This document shows positions 2,506 to 41,776 of a stretch of 54,025 nucleotides of DNA, piece after piece; the first letter of the stretch is position 1, and the number at the start of each line of letters is the position of its first letter. The position numbers and the translations under genes are program-made. Origin of the DNA: Candidatus Rokuibacteriota bacterium. GTDB lineage: Bacteria > Methylomirabilota > Methylomirabilia > Rokubacteriales > CSP1-6. Location: NCBI GenBank assembly GCA_003220495.1, contig QHSP01000045.1, forward strand, positions 1 through 54,025, read 5' to 3'. The notes beneath the pieces are model-generated. The model made no database searches, was not told the DNA's origin, and saw only the letters and a list, made by a program, of their open reading frames with translations.

Positions 2506-2940
2506 GTGACGATCACGCGTTTCTCGCCGGCCCTCGCTCTCGTTTTGCTCGCGGCCGGCTCGGCTCATTGCGCTGATGTCGTCCGCTTCAAGGGCACCAC
2601 GGTCACCTTCCGGGTTGAGGCCTCGTCTGTCAAAGGGTTCACGCTCACTGCCAGCGCGCTCTGCCTGGCCGGGTCCAAGAGCACTAACGAGATTCGGGTG
2701 ATTCCGGTCGAAGAGCCGGCCAGGCTCGACGGCGACGGGCACTTCACGCTGGCCTTCGACAAGAGCGGGACGAGGCTCTCGGTGATCGGCCGCGTCGCCG
2801 GGTCGGCCGCCGAGGGCCGATTCGAGGTCCACTACACGAAGACGTTCACATCCTACGACGTCGTCACCCGCAATCCGAAATTCGAGATCGCGTCATGCTC
2901 GGCGAGGGCGCCGTGGACGGCACGACGCGAGGGTTCTTAG
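2506..2940 (+). CDS. Secreted hypothetical protein, 144 aa
   Basis: I chose the GTG at 2506 because GTAGGAGGCG lies just upstream and because translation then begins with a good Sec signal peptide (TITRFSPALALVLLAAGSAHC, cleavage near AHC-AD). A longer open frame exists upstream, but it would put this signal peptide in the middle of the protein. The mature 120 residues look like a beta-rich domain (VVRFKGTTVTFRVEASSVKG) with Cys residues at the ends of the fold. No family is recognised. Its stop overlaps the stop of the convergent gene at 2937 by 4 bp. Confidence 0.6.
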   Translation: MTITRFSPALALVLLAAGSAHCADVVRFKGTTVTFRVEASSVKGFTLTASALCLAGSKSTNEIRVIPVEEPARLDGDGHFTLAFDKSGTRLSVIGRVAGSAAEGRFEVHYTKTFTSYDVVTRNPKFEIASCSARAPWTARREGS

Positions 2941-3974
2941 CTCCTCCCGAGCATCGCGCGCAAAGCCTCGATGTCGAAGTTCTCCCTGAACTGCCGCATC
3001 ACCTCGACTTTGGGCGGGTTCTGCGGCTGCCAGCGCAGCAAAATGATGGCGAATTGAATCGCATGGCGCGGCAGGCTCTTGTCGAAAAAGGCGTCGTTGA
3101 GCACGTAGAGACGGTCGCCGCGCTCGCCTTTCGCGGCAAACGTCATGTGATCTCTATTACCGGCGTGCGTATTGCGTACGATCGCGGGCTCCTGTCGTTC
3201 CGCCGGGGTCATGCCCTCCCGCAGGGCGACGAGGTTCGCCAATCGCTGCTCATACGATTTAACGCTCTTGTCGATGCCTGCTCTCGAGCTCGCGGCGCGG
3301 CCTTCGGCTGACTTCAGCAGGGTCGCGATCTGATCGCGCTCGATCTGCTCCCGTGTCCTCAGAAATTCTTCCCGGCTCACGTCCCGGGTCAGCCGCATGT
3401 CCTTGGCCTTGACGAGAATCGCTTCCCATCGCACCCCGCGGCTGGACTCCCACGCGTGGCGCGCATGACCTTTGAAGTCGCCTGCGCGCCGCGGCAAAGA
3501 GAACATCACCCCGCCGTCGGCGACGCGGAACTCGTCACCTAAGGGGGAGATGAGCTGGCTGAGATCGTTGAACTTGATGTAGATCCAGGTCGCGGTCTCG
3601 CCGCCGAGCAGGATTTTGCCGCGCACATCCTGGTTGCCCGCCGTCTGCCCGACGCAGAAGTAGCCCAGGAAAAGCGCCGTCACGCCGTACTTGAGCGGAC
3701 CCTCGTCTGAATATTGCACGCCGCGCGAGCGCGATACGTTCGCCTGCACCCCCTTCGGATCCGGGATCGCGCGCTTCAGAAGCTCGACGACCTCGTCCGA
3801 TTTTCGCAATGCGGCTGCACGTGCTGACCGGGGCAGAGCGCGATCGTTGGCCAGAGTGTCTTCGCCGTGCGACCACGCCCCGGCCGTCTGCCACGCCAAC
3901 TCGTCGCTGCACTGTGCCGCGGCTTGGCCGGCTGCCAGCAGCAGCCCTGCGATCAAGATCAGTCCGTTCCGCAT
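2937..3974 (-). CDS. Secreted hypothetical protein, 345 aa
   Basis: The start is set at the ATG at 3974, preceded by GGGAGG, because translation then opens with a signal peptide (MRNGLILIAGLLLAAGQAAA, cut before QCSDELAW). An upstream extension to 4193 would bury the signal. The mature protein has a beta-rich middle region (LGGETATWIYIKFNDLSQLI) and then a charged helical stretch (about residues 195-260) rich in Glu, Arg and Lys, likely coiled. No catalytic motif is visible and I do not recognise the family. It is probably periplasmic and converges on the secreted gene at 2506-2940. Confidence 0.6.
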   Translation of the reverse strand: MRNGLILIAGLLLAAGQAAAQCSDELAWQTAGAWSHGEDTLANDRALPRSARAAALRKSDEVVELLKRAIPDPKGVQANVSRSRGVQYSDEGPLKYGVTALFLGYFCVGQTAGNQDVRGKILLGGETATWIYIKFNDLSQLISPLGDEFRVADGGVMFSLPRRAGDFKGHARHAWESSRGVRWEAILVKAKDMRLTRDVSREEFLRTREQIERDQIATLLKSAEGRAASSRAGIDKSVKSYEQRLANLVALREGMTPAERQEPAIVRNTHAGNRDHMTFAAKGERGDRLYVLNDAFFDKSLPRHAIQFAIILLRWQPQNPPKVEVMRQFRENFDIEALRAMLGRS

Positions 3975-4199
3975 CAGAGCCTCCCGAGCCGAAGCGATCA
4001 TGGCCGAGCGTCCGACTCGTGCGCCGATGATACGCAACCCGGCTGTCCTTCGCCAAAGCCATGTCCGGCAGTCAAGTGGCGGTGGTGGCACGCCCAAAAG
4101 GAGATGGCCCTGGCGCTTCAGCTCGTAGAGGCGCTCGCTGATGACTGGGACCCGAAGGAGTCGCCGCAGATATGGTTCGGTCAGGGAGTTCAACAGGAA

Positions 4200-4655
4200 C
4201 TAGACTAATGTGCGCGGGACTGCCTCCGGCCCCCTCTGCCTTCGTCGTGTAGCGCCTTTCAGGAGCACTATGGCTTTCGGCGTGAATCGCACAACAGTGT
4301 AACCGAGCGAAGAAACCTCGCCTTGCCGAATCCGCCGCATGCTCCTGTGGCGGCGCTCGTCGGCCACGGGGTACTGCGCCGCTCGGCGATCCCCCGTCCG
4401 GCGCTCCATGAGCACCTTCACACCACGCAGGCCGGCGAAAGCCCGCTGGAGATGGTCGCGGAGCGCCGTGTCGTTTGGGCGCACGACGATGAGCACTTCG
4501 ACATCCGGAAATGACTTTGATGGAAGGAGTTCGAGGAGCCGTTTTTGGTGATATGCGCAGATGCAGTGTGTCGTCGCGGGGTTGTAGAATGGCTCGCGCT
4601 CACCTAGATCGCTAGGCCGGCCCTCGCTCTCGCACCACGCGCAGATTGCTTTCAT
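4200..4655 (-). CDS. Putative zinc-binding protein with Arg-rich C-terminal module, 151 aa
   Basis: The N-terminus carries CAWC (residues 5-8) and, 22 residues later, HCICAYH, which together look like a small zinc finger. Residues 52-123 hold a second module: VLIVVRP, a helix ending RAFAG, a basic stretch (ERRTGDRRAAQYPVADERRH) and a closing GYTVVRF strand. The same order of elements appears in the protein at 32074-32544, which has a completely different N-terminus. The function is unknown; the basic stretch might bind nucleic acid. It is cytoplasmic, with no signal peptide. No strong ribosome site precedes the ATG. Confidence 0.6.
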   Translation of the reverse strand: MKAICAWCESEGRPSDLGEREPFYNPATTHCICAYHQKRLLELLPSKSFPDVEVLIVVRPNDTALRDHLQRAFAGLRGVKVLMERRTGDRRAAQYPVADERRHRSMRRIRQGEVSSLGYTVVRFTPKAIVLLKGATRRRQRGPEAVPRTLV

Positions 4656-7734: not shown

Positions 7735-8157
7735 ATGCCCGAACAGCAGAATCTGCAGCTTGCTCGCGAAAGCATCGAAGCCTGGAGCGCTCACGATCCC
7801 AGCCGCCTCGCCAAGATTGTCGATGAGAAGTTCGTCGCCGAGAGCGACACGCTGCCGGCTCGGATCAACGGCTCCGAGGAATTGGCCCAGTTCATGAGCG
7901 TATACGTCACCGCCTTTCCCGACCTTCACTTCGAGATAGAGCAGCAGCTCGCAGACGGTGATTTCGTTGTCACTCGCTGGATCGCCACGGGCACGCATCG
8001 CGGAGCTCTGATGGGTATCCAGCCGACCAATCGTCGAGCGGTGACACATGGCTGTACGGTGTCCGAATTCAGAAATAGCAAGGGCGTCCACGACTGGATC
8101 TACTGGGATTCGGGCAATCTCCTTCGGCAGCTTGGCGTCTTGCCGGGCTCAAAATAG
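7735..8157 (+). CDS. SnoaL-like / ester cyclase family protein, 140 aa
   Basis: A small cytoplasmic alpha+beta barrel protein of the NTF2-like superfamily. The pattern of an N-terminal helix (ARESIEAWSAHDPSRLAKIV), VYVTAFPDLHFEIEQQLADG, then VVTRWIATGTHRGALMGIQP and a conserved Trp/Asp end is that of SnoaL-like polyketide cyclases and their many environmental relatives. The length of 140 residues is normal. AGGAGATCCGCC precedes the ATG. It stands alone, and the substrate is unknown; members range from cyclases to simple hydrolases. Confidence 0.8.
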   Translation: MPEQQNLQLARESIEAWSAHDPSRLAKIVDEKFVAESDTLPARINGSEELAQFMSVYVTAFPDLHFEIEQQLADGDFVVTRWIATGTHRGALMGIQPTNRRAVTHGCTVSEFRNSKGVHDWIYWDSGNLLRQLGVLPGSK

Positions 8158-35712: not shown

Positions 35713-36981
35713 TCAGCGAGGTCGCCAGCCGATGCGCTCGCCGTCGACCGCAACGCCGAGGAAGACGATCGCCATCTCGTCGGTCGTTCCCTCGCCCCAG
35801 CTCACCGGCCGCGGCGGCCGGCTCGGCTGGCGGAGGTTGTCGGCGGAATTGTCGAAGATCGCGGCCATGTCGATCCGCGTCCCGCTCGGCAGCGGGATCG
35901 GCTGCGCGAACGTGTACGTGGTCTGCCAGTTGAAGTCCCAATCGTCGATGTGGATGAGCTGGCGGACCGTGCCGTCGGGATACGTCGCGGTCACCTTCAT
36001 CTCGCGTCCGAGCAGGTGCATGTGCGGCGTGATGGTACCGGCGTGGAGATCCCGGTTGAACGGATCCGTCCACGAGCCGCGTACCTCGTAGCGCCGCTCG
36101 CCGGGCGGGATCGTGAACGTCCGATTCAGGACCGCGATGCCACGCTGCCGCTTGTCGATCGGGCCCTTCGCGAAGTGCAGCGCGACGCGCGTCCGGTCCG
36201 TGCGCGCCACGGTCGCCCCGTTGTTGTAGTGCATCTGGAGCACCACGCTCGCGCCCTTCGGGAGCAGCATGCCGACGCCCTCGGCCGTCTCTCGCGGCTG
36301 GTTGCCGGGCGCCCAGCCGGAGAGCCCGCCGGCCGGGGTGAAGCCGGGCCCGCCGAAGCACGTGTAGCCCGGCCCGGGATCGGCGCGATCGAGCTGTTCC
36401 GCGGCGGCCGTCGTATCCACATACGCGAGAATATGATGGACGAGTTTCCGATCGCCCGGCGCGTACTCGACCTTCGTCACCCAGCGATCCTCGGCGAACT
36501 TCGTCGGGATCACGAAGCAGCGATAGACGTCGCTGGCGCGCGCCGGCACCGTGTACGTCTCGGGCATCTCGAGGACGTGATCGGGAGGCCCGAGCTTCCA
36601 GCCGTCGTGGAACACGAGCGGCGGCGGCAGCGTCGCGCGGTCTCCCTCGGGCGCGCCCGCCTCGATCCAGCGCACCAGGGTCGTGAGCTCGCGGTCCGAG
36701 AGCCGGCGCGACTCGAGGAAGTCGCCGAAACCGGGTACCGGCTTCCAGGGTGGCATCACGCGCCCCTTGACGGCGTCACGGATGTCGTCCTTCTTGTCGA
36801 ACGCGTCGCGGTAGGTGAGCAGCGCGAACGGCGCGTGCTCGCCCGGTCGATGGCACGTCTGGCAGCGGGCCTGGAGAATGCGGACGACCTCGTCGCTGAA
36901 GGTCGGCGGCTCCAGAGCCGGCGCCGTCGCGATGAGAGGCAGGACCGCCAGCGCGGCCATGAGCAGAAGACGAGTTCGCAT
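35713..36981 (-). CDS. Secreted cytochrome c / copper type II monooxygenase-like fusion, 422 aa
   Basis: The signal peptide (RTRLLLMAALAVLPLIATAP) is followed by a cytochrome c haem site CQTCH (C40, C43, H44). The second part is a peptidylglycine-hydroxylating-monooxygenase-like copper domain with all six ligands placed: LVHHILAYVD (H182, H183), QMHYNN (H251), ITPHMHLLG (H320, H322) and TTDEMAIVF (Met403, where the enzyme family has SDEMC). GGGGAGG lies before the ATG at 36981. The haem part could pass electrons to the copper sites, replacing ascorbate. The substrate is unknown. It is divergent from the next gene with about 49 bp between starts. Confidence 0.85.
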   Translation of the reverse strand: MRTRLLLMAALAVLPLIATAPALEPPTFSDEVVRILQARCQTCHRPGEHAPFALLTYRDAFDKKDDIRDAVKGRVMPPWKPVPGFGDFLESRRLSDRELTTLVRWIEAGAPEGDRATLPPPLVFHDGWKLGPPDHVLEMPETYTVPARASDVYRCFVIPTKFAEDRWVTKVEYAPGDRKLVHHILAYVDTTAAAEQLDRADPGPGYTCFGGPGFTPAGGLSGWAPGNQPRETAEGVGMLLPKGASVVLQMHYNNGATVARTDRTRVALHFAKGPIDKRQRGIAVLNRTFTIPPGERRYEVRGSWTDPFNRDLHAGTITPHMHLLGREMKVTATYPDGTVRQLIHIDDWDFNWQTTYTFAQPIPLPSGTRIDMAAIFDNSADNLRQPSRPPRPVSWGEGTTDEMAIVFLGVAVDGERIGWRPR

Positions 36982-37030
36982 CGCGCGCCTCCCCTGCCCG
37001 TCTGGTGAGGGCTTTGAACATACCACGCCG

Positions 37031-38251
37031 TTGACTCCACCCAGAATCTCTTCCACCATCGGGGCCGCCTTGGATGCCAGCGGAGCCGAGCGCCAGTCGG
37101 ACGCGTCGTGGCGGCAAACGATCGCGCAGATGCACGCGTCCGGTCGCCAGGCGGTGCTGGTGATCACCGGCGGCGGCAGCGGCGCGATCGCCGAGCTGCT
37201 CCGCGTGCCCGGCGGGTCGCGATTGCTGCTCGAGGCGCTGGTGCCGTACGATTCGCGGGCGCTCGCGGCGTTCCTGGGCGTCGAGCCGGGCCAGGCGTGC
37301 AGTACCGAGACAGCCGTGGCGCTGGCGCAGCGCGCCCGCGAGCGCGCGGCGAAGCTGGTGCCGACCGGCGCCCGGCTGGTCGGCCTCGGCGCGACGGCGG
37401 GGCTCGTCACCGACCGCCCGAGACAGGGCGAGCATCGCTTCCACATCGCGGTGACCACCGGCGCCGGCACCGACCACTGCTCGGTCGTGCTGGCGAAAGG
37501 GCGTCGGGACCGGCCGGCCGAAGAGGATCTCGTCGCGCGCGCCATCGTGCTGTGGCTCGCCCGCGCGTGTGGAGTCGCCGCGGCTTCGCCGCGTAGCCTG
37601 CTGGACGCCGACGAGCACTATGCGGAGGCGGTGGTGCAGACCGGCGATCTCGTGGACCAGCTCCTTGCGGGCGGCCTCACGCGCGTGACGGCGTGGCCCG
37701 ATGGCCAGCTCGTGCCCTCGGCGCCGCCGCCGACTGTCGTGCTGCCCGGCGCCTTCAACCCGCTCCACGATGGGCATCTCCTCCTCGCGCGCGTCGCCGA
37801 GGACATCAGGCAGCAGCCGGTCGCCTTCGAGATCTCGGTGCTCAACGTCGACAAGCCGCCGCTCACCGCCGGTGAGGTCCGCGACCGGCTCGCCCAGTTC
37901 GCGTGGCGGGCGAGGGTCGAGCTCACGCGCGCGGCGACGTTCCTCGAGAAGTCACGGCTCTTCCCCGGCGCGACGTTCGTCATCGGCGCCGACACGGCCG
38001 AGCGCCTGGTGGCGACGCGGTACTACGGTGGCGACGACGCGCGAATGACCGCGGCGCTGCAGGAGATCGCGGATCGGGGCGGCGGCTTCCTGGTGGCCGT
38101 GCGGATCGACGGCGCCGGGCGTGTGCGCTCGATGGCCGACGTCGCCGTTCCGCCGCGGTTCGGCCAGCTCTTCACGGCAATCCCCGAGAGCCGGTTCCGA
38201 CTCGACTTCTCGTCGTCTGACATCCGCTCGCGGCGGCGCGCCGCTCCCTGA
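37031..38251 (+). CDS. Fusion of CinA-like domain and nucleotidyltransferase domain, 406 aa
   Basis: The N-terminal 200 residues resemble the CinA C-terminal family (VITGGGSGAIAELLRVPGGS and CSTETAVALAQRARERAAKL). The C-terminal 180 residues are a Rossmann-like nucleotidyltransferase with VLPGAFNPLHDGHLLLARVA (HxGH as HDGH, residues 246-249) and the late SSSDIR motif (394-399) in place of ISSTxIR. NadD-like nicotinate-nucleotide adenylyltransferases have these two sites. The combination suggests nicotinamide-nucleotide salvage or repair (deamidation, then adenylylation), which is inference. The start is uncertain: TTG at 37031 is a working choice; an internal ATG at 37130 is the alternative. 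Confidence 0.72.
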   Translation: MTPPRISSTIGAALDASGAERQSDASWRQTIAQMHASGRQAVLVITGGGSGAIAELLRVPGGSRLLLEALVPYDSRALAAFLGVEPGQACSTETAVALAQRARERAAKLVPTGARLVGLGATAGLVTDRPRQGEHRFHIAVTTGAGTDHCSVVLAKGRRDRPAEEDLVARAIVLWLARACGVAAASPRSLLDADEHYAEAVVQTGDLVDQLLAGGLTRVTAWPDGQLVPSAPPPTVVLPGAFNPLHDGHLLLARVAEDIRQQPVAFEISVLNVDKPPLTAGEVRDRLAQFAWRARVELTRAATFLEKSRLFPGATFVIGADTAERLVATRYYGGDDARMTAALQEIADRGGGFLVAVRIDGAGRVRSMADVAVPPRFGQLFTAIPESRFRLDFSSSDIRSRRRAAP

Positions 38252-38254
38252 CGC

Positions 38255-39172
38255 CTAATCCCGCCAGTGCTCCGGAAGGATGCTCTGCACGTCCGCGATG
38301 TCGCACTGCGCCGCCATCCATCGCTCGGCATACAGGCCGTCCTTGTAGAGCGATTGCTGGGATTCGTACACCGTCACGGGGCCTCGCAGCGCCGCGACCA
38401 GCGGCTGCAAGGCGCCGCCATCGAGCAGGCTGCCCGGCGCGCCGGCCATGAGGAGCGTCGTCGCGGCGGTGACGCGTGGCGCGAAGCCCAGCAGGTCACA
38501 GTAGGCGAGCGTGCGCCGCACCGCCGCGGCGCGCTCCGGGTACGTGCGAACGTAGTCGTTGATCTCTTCGAGAGGATACGCCTGGGTCTTCGGAGCGAGC
38601 GCGGCCGTCTTGTAGAACAGTGTGGGGGTCGTCACGACGCGCGTCGCCCCCGGAGTCAACGCCGCGGTGATGAGCGCCAGGTCGTTACCCGCCACGACCA
38701 CGCGCGCGGAATCGACCTCCGGCCGCGTGACGAGATACTCCAGGCCCCGGACACTGTCGGCCACGATGCCCCGGAACACGTACGCCGCGGCGTGGTCGAT
38801 GCCCTCGGTGAGCAGGCCGGGGAACATCGCGGCGTAGGGCGAATCGGCATGACGTTGCCCTCGGCCGGCGAGCGCGAACGTGACGTACCGGCTGCGCTGG
38901 AGATTCGCGGTCCCCTGCGGAATGATCTCGAGGACGCTCTGATATTTCGGTGGATAGTAGATCGCCGGAAAGGGCCCGGCGCCGGTCGGGATACTCAGAT
39001 AGCCGAACAGGCGGTAGGGGCCGAGGCTGGTGAGCCGCACCCCGAGCAAGGTGGCGAACGCGGTGCTCCTGAGCGGCAGCAGCTCGATCTCCGGACGCGC
39101 CGGATATTGGGCCAGCGCGGCGAGAGTCTCCTGCCAGTACGCGCGAATGTCCGCCGGCGTCGGCTCGATCAT
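38255..39172 (-). CDS. Acetyl-xylan-esterase-like protein lacking a catalytic triad, 305 aa
   Basis: Paralogue of the downstream gene (39169-40110) with the same fold order: a YWQETLAALAQYPA N-terminus, LFGYLSIPTGAGPFPAIYYP, VRGLEYLVTRPEVDSARVVV, EEINDYVRTYPERAAAV. At the nucleophile elbow the paralogue has TGSSQGG, while this protein has AGNDLAL (161-167), so Ser is gone. The Asp in LQDNVCPP is replaced by APGSLLDGG, and the His region YDGHGHD by SQQSLYKDG (271-278). The three catalytic positions are thus all lost. It overlaps the active gene by 4 bp in the same operon. It may be a regulatory or binding subunit. Confidence 0.75.
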   Translation of the reverse strand: MIEPTPADIRAYWQETLAALAQYPARPEIELLPLRSTAFATLLGVRLTSLGPYRLFGYLSIPTGAGPFPAIYYPPKYQSVLEIIPQGTANLQRSRYVTFALAGRGQRHADSPYAAMFPGLLTEGIDHAAAYVFRGIVADSVRGLEYLVTRPEVDSARVVVAGNDLALITAALTPGATRVVTTPTLFYKTAALAPKTQAYPLEEINDYVRTYPERAAAVRRTLAYCDLLGFAPRVTAATTLLMAGAPGSLLDGGALQPLVAALRGPVTVYESQQSLYKDGLYAERWMAAQCDIADVQSILPEHWRD

Positions 39173-40110
39173 TGGCTCACCTCACGGCCCAGCAAGTGGC
39201 GCGCGAAGAATTGGTCGACGACGGCGCTATGTCGCGCGCGTCCGGCGTCGTGGCCGTGGCCGTCGTAGGGATACAGACGCTTGTCCGCGGCGCCGACCCG
39301 GCCGTACAGCGCGTAGCCGGTCTCCGGCGGACATACGTTGTCCTGCAAGCCGATGTTCACGATGATCGGACAGGCAATCCGGTCGGCGAAGCAGATCCCA
39401 TCGAAGTAGGCGAGCGTTTCTTCCACCGCCGCGCGGCGCTCCGGGTGCAGGCGCAGATAGTCGGTGATCTCTTCGTAGGGATAGGTGTGCGTCAGCTCGA
39501 TCGCATCCGTGAAACCGCAGAGGTACGGCGCTCCGGCCGCCGCGGCGCGAACCTCCGACCGCATCGCGGCCGTCGTGATGGTCAGGCCGCCGCCCTGACT
39601 GCTCCCCGTCACTCCGAGGCGAGCCGGGTCGACCTCCGGGCGCGACAGGAGAAAATCGATGCCGCGCCATGTGTCCACGTAGAATCCGCGATAAGCGTAC
39701 GTGTGGCGATCGACGATGTTGTGGGTCAGAAGATTGGGATAACCCGGATTGAACTGGCGATTGCTGCGAAGCTTGCCGCGCGGGGCGACGGACAGCGCCA
39801 CGTAACCCTTTCGCGCCCACTCCTTGGGAATCGGCGGATCCATCTGATAGCCGGGCAGGACCATGATGGCCGGCGTGCGCTCGGCCCGGCGGGCGGGACG
39901 GCAATACCAGGCGGCCACGCGCACCTGGTCGATGCTGGTGTAGAAGACCTGGAAGACCTCGACGTCCTCCGACGTTCGGAGCGGGTCGGGGATGACCTCG
40001 GGCTCCAGCGCAACGCCGGACGCTTGGCGCAGGACGGCGTCCCAGAACGCGTCGAAGTCATCCGGCTTGCGGACTGTGGACTGGTAGTTACCGGCGAGGG
40101 CGTTCGGCAT
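39169..40110 (-). CDS. Acetyl xylan esterase (AXE1) family alpha/beta hydrolase, 313 aa
   Basis: Serine esterase of the AXE1/cephalosporin-C-deacetylase family. The nucleophile elbow is TGSSQGG with S171, the Asp is D257 in LQDNVCPP, and the His is in YDGHGHD (285 or 287). The N-terminal stretch MPNALAGNYQSTVRKPDDFD, then FWDAVLRQ, is as expected for this family. The ATG at 40110 has GAGGAGAAG upstream. It is 14 bp downstream of the GMC oxidoreductase and overlaps the triad-less paralogue, so all three form one unit. Confidence 0.88.
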   Translation of the reverse strand: MPNALAGNYQSTVRKPDDFDAFWDAVLRQASGVALEPEVIPDPLRTSEDVEVFQVFYTSIDQVRVAAWYCRPARRAERTPAIMVLPGYQMDPPIPKEWARKGYVALSVAPRGKLRSNRQFNPGYPNLLTHNIVDRHTYAYRGFYVDTWRGIDFLLSRPEVDPARLGVTGSSQGGGLTITTAAMRSEVRAAAAGAPYLCGFTDAIELTHTYPYEEITDYLRLHPERRAAVEETLAYFDGICFADRIACPIIVNIGLQDNVCPPETGYALYGRVGAADKRLYPYDGHGHDAGRARHSAVVDQFFARHLLGREVSQ

Positions 40111-40124
40111 GGCTTCTCCTCGTG

Positions 40125-41744
40125 TCAGGGTGCGGCGGGCTGGCCGAGAATCAGGTCGGACGCCTTCTCCGCGATCATCAGAACACAGGCGTTGATGTTG
40201 CCCGAGACCAGATCGGGCATGGCCGAGGCATCGGCGACGCGGAGCCCCTCGACGCCCCGCACTCGCAGTGCCGGGTCCAGCACCGCGTCGGCTCCGCTTC
40301 CCATCGCGCACGTGGCGCACGGATGATGCGCGGTGATCGCGGTGCGGCGCACGAACGCGTCGATCGCGGTGTCGGTACGGCAATCGGCCCCCGGCGCGGT
40401 CTCGCGGCCCCTGAACGGATCGAGCCCCTTGCGGCTCGCGATGTCGCGTCCGAGCTTGACCCCCTCGCGGATCGTGCGGACGTCGTGGTCGGTCGCGAGA
40501 AAGTTCTGCACGATCCGCACGGGCGCGGCCGGATCCGCCGAGCGCAGCCGGACGACGCCACGGCTTTCGGGGTGAAGCATCACCGGTCGCAGGCCGAAGC
40601 TATCCTCGTAGGGCGGCGTGATGCCCGGAAACCACGGATGCGCCCGGGTCGGCGCGCCACGGAACAGAAACTGGATATCGGGGACGGGAAGCTCCCGTCG
40701 TGTCTTGAGGAAGGCGTGCAGACGGCTCGGCAGAACGGTCCCCGGTCCCGTGCCGAACACGTAGGCCCGCACCATATTGAGGGCGGTGCGATCCAGACGC
40801 ATCTGGGCGTGAAAGGGGCCGCGGCCGCGGCGGAGATGGTGCACGTCGACCGAGAGATGGTCCTGGAGATTCTGGCCCACGCCGGGCAAGCTCACCCGCG
40901 GCGCGATGCCCATCGCGCGCAGATGGTCGGGCTCGCCAATTCCCGACAGCATCAGGAGCTGCGGCGTGTTGAACACACCGCCCGCGAGCAGCACCTCGCG
41001 CGCGATCGCGACTCGATGGAGGCGGCCGTCCTTGGCGTATTCGACGCCGACCGCGCGCGACCCCTCGAGGACGACCCGGGTCGCGAGCGCGTTCGTCTCG
41101 ACCCTGAGGTTGGCCCTCCGCATGGCCGGCCGCAGAAAGGCGACCGAAGCGCTGCAGCGGCGGCCGTTCCGGATGGTCCATTGCGCGCGGCCGAAGCCCT
41201 CCTGGTGCTCGCCGTTGTAGTCCTCGGTCAAGGGCCAGTCCGCGTCCCGCGCCGCGTCGAGCCAGCCGTCGAACAGGGGGTCGCGATTTCGCGTATCGAT
41301 GACCGAGAGCGGGCCGTGGCCGCCGCGCCAGGCGTTCTCGCCCTTTTCCCAGCTCTCGCAGCGCTTGAAGTAGGGCAGGACGTCGGCATACGACCAGCCG
41401 TGGCAGCCGTTCTGCGCCCATCGGTCGTAGTCGCCGCGGTGGCCGCGCACGTAGGCCATCACGTTGATCGAGGAGCTTCCGCCGAGCACCTTGCCGCGCA
41501 TCGCTTCGATGCGGCGGTTGTCCAGCCGGAGCTCGGGCTCGGTGTCGTAGCCCCAGTCGAACATGCGATGCTCCCAGATCTTGCCGAGCCCGATCGGGAT
41601 GTGGATGAGGGGATGGGTATCGCGCCCGCCGGCTTCGAGCAGCAGCACCTGGATCGAAGGGTCGGCGGTGAGACGATAGGCGAGGACGCAGCCGGCCGAG
41701 CCCGCCCCAACGATGACGTAGTCGTAGCCCTCGCGCCCGGCCAT
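40125..41744 (-). CDS. GMC family FAD-dependent oxidoreductase, choline-dehydrogenase-like, 539 aa
   Basis: Flavoenzyme that oxidises alcohols to aldehydes. The FAD motif is YVIVGAGSAGCVLAYRL, the GMC signature 1 lies around MRGKVLGGSSSINVMAYVRG, and the active-site His region is ITAHHPCATCAMG with the C-terminal DASAMPDLVSGNINACVLM. Normal length. The ATG at 41744 is preferred; a GTG at 41756 adds four residues. First gene of the unit with the esterase and its paralogue. It is divergent from the alpha/beta hydrolase at 41777 with only 32 bp between the starts. Confidence 0.93.
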   Translation of the reverse strand: MAGREGYDYVIVGAGSAGCVLAYRLTADPSIQVLLLEAGGRDTHPLIHIPIGLGKIWEHRMFDWGYDTEPELRLDNRRIEAMRGKVLGGSSSINVMAYVRGHRGDYDRWAQNGCHGWSYADVLPYFKRCESWEKGENAWRGGHGPLSVIDTRNRDPLFDGWLDAARDADWPLTEDYNGEHQEGFGRAQWTIRNGRRCSASVAFLRPAMRRANLRVETNALATRVVLEGSRAVGVEYAKDGRLHRVAIAREVLLAGGVFNTPQLLMLSGIGEPDHLRAMGIAPRVSLPGVGQNLQDHLSVDVHHLRRGRGPFHAQMRLDRTALNMVRAYVFGTGPGTVLPSRLHAFLKTRRELPVPDIQFLFRGAPTRAHPWFPGITPPYEDSFGLRPVMLHPESRGVVRLRSADPAAPVRIVQNFLATDHDVRTIREGVKLGRDIASRKGLDPFRGRETAPGADCRTDTAIDAFVRRTAITAHHPCATCAMGSGADAVLDPALRVRGVEGLRVADASAMPDLVSGNINACVLMIAEKASDLILGQPAAP

Positions 41745-41776
41745 CGCTAGGGGCACCGGACGACAGGAGGATCGTG

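Follow-up and report, generated by a model that had tools for sequence, protein, structure and literature searches.

We identified two overlapping genes, here called A and B, that probably encode obligate subunits of one esterase, with a CE7-like co-assembly in which B is the non-catalytic partner. They lie in a 54,025-nucleotide stretch of DNA from Candidatus Rokuibacteriota bacterium (contig QHSP01000045.1), the whole of which is referred to below as the window. A would be the catalytic chain. B would derive from an ancient duplication of A, would have lost its nucleophile before the known B copies diverged and would have been retained as a binding partner of A with no catalysis of its own. 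Since the CE7 enzymes known so far are hexamers and B retains the CE7 contact parts, the assembly would most likely be a CE7-like heterohexamer, such as A3B3, in which B would replace half of the subunits and complete the chamber. In such an assembly, B might stabilise A or shape its substrate entrance. That A and B bind each other, in what ratio and with what consequence for A, we infer from gene and protein sequences.

An intact and a triad-less AXE1 gene side by side

To both gene products, the Pfam AXE1 family (PF05448, curated cut-off of 21 bits) gave scores above the cut-off, with 218.4 bits for A and 73.4 bits for B. Their alignment covers 235 aa at 34% identity (E 2e-32), and by sequence the nearest solved structures for each are CE7 esterases. 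The positions of both genes and of their key residues are listed in Table 1.

Table 1. Features of the A-B gene pair in the window
Feature	Position	Strand	Remarks
Gene A, AXE1/CE7-like serine esterase, putative catalytic subunit	39169..40110	-	313 aa, ATG at 40110
Gene B, triad-less AXE1 paralogue, putative non-catalytic partner subunit	38255..39172	-	305 aa, ATG at 39172
ATGA, stop of A overlapping start of B by 4 nt	39169..39172	-	probable translational coupling
A Ser171 codon, nucleophile, GSSQG	39598..39600	-	Ser171 and Gln172 in 89/89 A sequences
A Asp257 codon, acid	39340..39342	-	Asp257 in 90/90 A sequences
A His287 codon, base	39250..39252	-	invariant, 90/90 A sequences
A Arg111-Gly-Lys113, RGK where CE7 has RGQ	39772..39780	-	family alignment
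B Asp164 in degenerate nucleophile elbow GND	38681..38683	-	alignment
B Arg104-Gly-Gln-Arg107, CE7-like RGQ retained	38852..38863	-	alignment

Gene A carries GxSQG together with a Ser-Asp-His triad, from which we infer that it is likely a catalytically active esterase. The base is assigned to His287, the family-wide invariant His (90/90), as against His285, which is present in 44 of 90 sequences. Within 39250-39258, His287 lies two residues past His285, the position aligned with the CE7 catalytic His. RGQ and HE are recognised as CE7 motifs (PMC6282417), and A has neither. At the RGQ position, 88 of 88 A sequences have R-[GN]-K, and the residue after His287 varies between copies (D, E, S or G, with HD in the window). 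Since RGQ is absent and R-[GN]-K is universal, we filed A as an AXE1/CE7-like protein rather than a canonical CE7 member; by its sequence, it lacks two of the three CE7 motifs.

Gene B has neither the catalytic triad nor GxSQG. Its elbow reads VAGNDLALI, its acid loop MAGAPGSLL and its His loop ESQQSLYKDG, with none of the three triad residues in place. B is about five residues shorter than A around the elbow, so the alignment of Asp164 to the place of Ser171 is approximate. The loss is no chance event: the triad was absent from all 16 B orthologues and from all B copies of more than 100 further pairs. GxSQG was found in every full-length A, versus none of 126 B open reading frames; the two A matches that did not contain it were one fragment and one unrelated 44-bit match. 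GxSxG matches in five B sequences all fell outside the elbow, and no aligned acid Asp or His was found in the main B clades. RGQR occurs in 81 of 92 B copies, with RGMR and other forms in the remainder. The motifs are in this way divided between the partners, with A always having R-[GN]-K and B mostly RGQR.

A sequence-only reading of this locus had described the gene at 39169 as keeping a complete Ser171-Asp257-His triad and the overlapping gene at 38255 as a paralogue of like fold order and N-terminus that had lost all three residues (AGNDLAL in place of TGSSQGG, a changed Asp loop and SQQSLYKDG as the His loop). Both descriptions held, with His287 as the invariant base.

On the same strand, 15 nt upstream of A, is a gene for a GMC oxidoreductase (choline-dehydrogenase-like; 40125-41756). 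A GMC gene adjoins A in two close relatives (L045 and L037), and L036 and L040 have one at another place in the locus; none was found near A in the remaining loci. On the other side, a 478-aa frame at 36815-38251, which joins CinA-like and cytidylyltransferase-like parts, adjoins B in four relatives. We considered gene context as a guide to the substrate and dropped it, as neighbours varied between loci and gave no steady clue.

Pairing, fusion and origin of the two genes

Within the class, B was present in 14 of 95 genomes, the window's own included: all nine genomes of the same genus and five others in the family. These orthologues were 75-88% identical, and each of the 14 genomes has A directly upstream on the same strand. 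Among the 95 class genomes, neither gene was found without the other, and neighbours without the pair lacked both. B was also detected downstream of A in a metagenome-assembled genome (MAG) titled Proteobacteria (F1-120, 74%) and in a MAG titled Chloroflexi (B17T3L14, 62%); no further B was found among 193 relatives of the F1-120 MAG. The ATGA-type overlap of A and B recurs in several orthologues. In one relative (G008, L040:7384-8321), a frameshift near 7914 breaks A in two and B is intact; as this is a draft MAG, the frameshift may be an assembly error.

With a B profile, we searched 247 genomes related to the Chloroflexi MAG (G100), extracted the loci and re-scored all frames with the A and B profiles. 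B-profile matches were present in 118 of these genomes, mostly two per genome and near each other, and A was present in 106. We obtained 66 two-gene pairs with A before B on the same strand and a median of 44 nt between aligned ends. Looser pairs were separated by 224 and 443 nt, by 0.9 kb in G288 and by 2.6 kb in G194, and in G152 the two genes were 13 kb apart on opposite strands; G288, G194 and G152 are the three genomes in which A and B are no longer directly adjacent and both are retained. B had no adjoining A only at contig edges (G231, G145 and G293) or where the partner lay elsewhere in the genome. Three genomes (G237, G245 and G268) have two A-B pairs each, from different deep clades (L093/L132, L094/L133 and L138/L134, respectively). 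In a second sample of 400 genomes drawn evenly from the phylum of G100, 15 had a strong B (14 besides G100), and A was just upstream of B in all 15 loci fetched (two of them from one genome). Altogether, relatives of the Chloroflexi MAG yielded more than 100 A-B pairs beyond those of the window's relatives. An apparently live and a dead paralogue are encoded and kept together in these genomes, as in an enzyme-pseudoenzyme pair.

Operon neighbours may be co-inherited without physical contact. Gene fusions are classic evidence that proteins that are separate elsewhere work together, and in six genomes (L095-L100) A and B are joined in a single open frame 612 codons long, which in L097 runs on the minus strand at 2565-4400. 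These frames comprise a full A half (GSSQGG, Asp and His) and a full B half (GSES or GSEA elbow) with a joint of about 20 residues. The fusion proteins scored 256 and 269 bits against AXE1, with two stretches each. A seventh fusion (L195) was cut by a contig end.

We built a tree of 191 sequences (FastTree), in which A (86 sequences; support 0.93) and B (90 sequences; support 1.0) were each monophyletic. A reduced set analysed with IQ-TREE gave UFBoot values of 98 (A) and 100 (B) and placed them as sister groups. On these trees, a single ancient duplication followed by a single nucleophile loss explains all pairs. The deepest B clade has an elbow of canonical shape, with Gly replacing Ser (GAGLGG), and still has the acid-loop Asp; in the other B clades, the elbow is mostly G-x-[D/E] and both acid and base are gone. 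Because the deepest clade keeps the elbow shape and the acid-loop Asp but has Gly for Ser, the nucleophile was probably lost first. The distance matrices of A and B correlated at r = 0.86, in line with co-evolution, a value that none of 2000 permutations reached and that in part reflects shared species history.

A group of single-copy AXE1 proteins (L157-L165 and L169; about ten genomes), whose elbows read SRSQGGG or GRSQGGG and whose motifs are RGQG or RAQG, served as the outgroup. These CE7-like proteins proved to be separate from A and B. No B relative was found in the genomes of this group except in G099 (L169), which has an A-B pair.

Retained regions and the role of B

CE7 enzymes are doughnut-shaped hexamers, built as trimers of dimers with the active sites towards a central chamber (PMC6282417), and their contacts are formed by an N-terminal extension, a three-helix insertion and a beta-interface loop (PMC6209228; PMC6282417). 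In the window, the identity between A and B differs by region: the three-helix insertion has 0.56, the helix and strand preceding the elbow 0.50, the beta-interface loop 0.30, and the acid and His loops 0.05-0.14. The beta-interface loop carries the RGQ position at its base. In B, six residues were invariant throughout the family (Arg104, Gly105, Arg107, Pro118, Asp139 and Glu203) and Tyr199, Pro200 and Asp206 nearly so; Trp13 apart, the N-terminal extension was among the less conserved parts.

AlphaFold single-chain models were of low confidence for both B (pLDDT 61.8, pTM 0.72) and A (pLDDT 60.4), owing to shallow alignments. A comparison of the B model with known structures returned CE7 chains first, with Foldseek E values down to 9e-13. 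The VIA Z score for CE7 was 18.5 over 257-259 residues (rmsd 3.6-3.7), and the next family reached 12.1. On this low-confidence model, B has the alpha/beta hydrolase fold, the N-terminal extension and the three-helix insertion of CE7. The modelled B has the CE7 fold, and the model speaks to the fold and not to the complex.

B could instead bind A only for a time, as its regulator, chaperone or inhibitor, and not be a permanent subunit, a reading we consider unlikely. Dead paralogues can be activators or chaperones, and the dead partner of MetCaCb makes the live one more soluble (PMC11271267); pairing, coupling and selection would fit such a role too. However, the fixed 1:1 fusions in one clade and the conserved CE7 contact parts fit a stable subunit better.

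The degenerate elbow raises the question of whether B has chemistry of its own. Asp-nucleophile alpha/beta hydrolases exist, namely haloalkane dehalogenases and epoxide hydrolases, and they offer a precedent for Asp164, or Glu at this place, serving as the nucleophile or the acid towards a related substrate. The elbow is G-x-[D/E] in most B copies, and its acidic residue is invariant in the 16 orthologues. By contrast, B has no conserved His, its deepest clade carries Gly at this place (GAGLG), the main clades have a shortened elbow and the strict pairing with A would be left unexplained. We regard such an activity as improbable.

Conservation elsewhere in B could point to binding rather than catalysis. 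The oxyanion-loop region and the RGQR stretch are strongly conserved, as would be expected if B bound an ester substrate or polymer in trans and formed no fixed complex with A. The fusions and the conserved contact regions, however, indicate A itself as the ligand, which makes binding in trans a still fainter prospect.

We calculated dN/dS among orthologues (Nei-Gojobori). Values for B ranged from 0.12 to 0.27 (median 0.20, 119 comparisons) and those for A from 0.09 to 0.22 (median 0.14), with amino-acid changes about 1.5 times faster in B than in A. These values place B under purifying selection, slightly weaker than that on A. No internal stops were found in B in the 16 orthologues. A neutral or decaying duplicate that is still open by chance would account for the complete triad loss and the faster change of B, but it is scarcely credible given dN/dS of 0.12-0.27 in all pairs, the lack of stops in 16 orthologues and the retention of B in more than 100 genomes and in fusions, and we ruled out a pseudogene on the basis of dN/dS, stops and distribution.

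The sequence-only reading had proposed that B keeps a non-catalytic role as a regulator, binding subunit or heteromer partner and is no drifting pseudogene, and had named a triad or frameshifts in orthologues of B as signs of decay. Neither sign was seen in the 16 orthologues. The triad-less copy is conserved in orthologous pairs, under selection and fused with A in some genomes, in line with a kept role; among the three roles, the evidence favours the heteromer partner.

Returning to obligate subunits of one esterase as the preferred reading, a broader version would make the pairs a widespread two-subunit CE7-like class, an alternating heterohexamer with the motifs split between A (triad and RGK) and B (RGQ), neither chain working alone, and with the two fused in one clade. 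We put this version forward tentatively, as a possibility on which doubt somewhat outweighs confidence.

Relation to known systems and meaning

Among the closest known systems is CE7 itself (cephalosporin C deacetylase/acetyl xylan esterase; B. subtilis 1ods, T. maritima TM0077 1vlq and B. pumilus 2xlb), which belongs to the same Pfam family, AXE1. The likeness extends to the fold, including the N-terminal extension and the three-helix insertion, and to the Ser-Asp-His triad kept by A. CE7 enzymes, however, are homohexamers of one active chain, whereas here there are two chains, one of them dead; CE7 has RGQ and HE, whereas A has RGK and no strict HE, and B has RGQR but no triad.

In its proposed arrangement of subunits, the pair resembles MetCaCb, a metformin hydrolase of the ureohydrolase/arginase superfamily whose dead subunit is needed for activity (PMC11271267). 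The two systems share adjacent genes, 34% identity, a catalytic and a dead subunit, a normally homomultimeric family and an origin by duplication (PMC11271267). MetCaCb differs in fold and chemistry, with a binuclear metal centre versus a serine hydrolase here. Unlike MetCaCb, the A-B pair is spread over genomes that are only distantly related, some of which carry it in fused form, and its complex and activity are predicted. In trypanosomatids, dead paralogues activate a live partner in a heteromer, as in AdoMetDC-prozyme and deoxyhypusine synthase (PMC5201418, PMC6221367, PMC3663545). Those pairs differ from A-B in being eukaryotic polyamine enzymes of unrelated fold with no operon. We found no description of a two-subunit CE7-type esterase in the literature searched, where coverage of subscription journals was limited, and one may be described elsewhere.

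Carriers of the pair found here are known largely as MAGs, so that any knowledge of what substrates they use comes from sequence. Annotation by Pfam would name both genes acetyl xylan esterase and so miss both the dead partner and the pair as a functional unit. If the two chains do depend on each other, A expressed alone may be inactive or insoluble. The series of B sequences also shows an order of loss, with the nucleophile gone in all B and the acid-loop Asp persisting in the deepest B clade. If the complex is real, the CE7 alpha/beta hydrolases would join the few known bacterial enzyme-pseudoenzyme heteromers.
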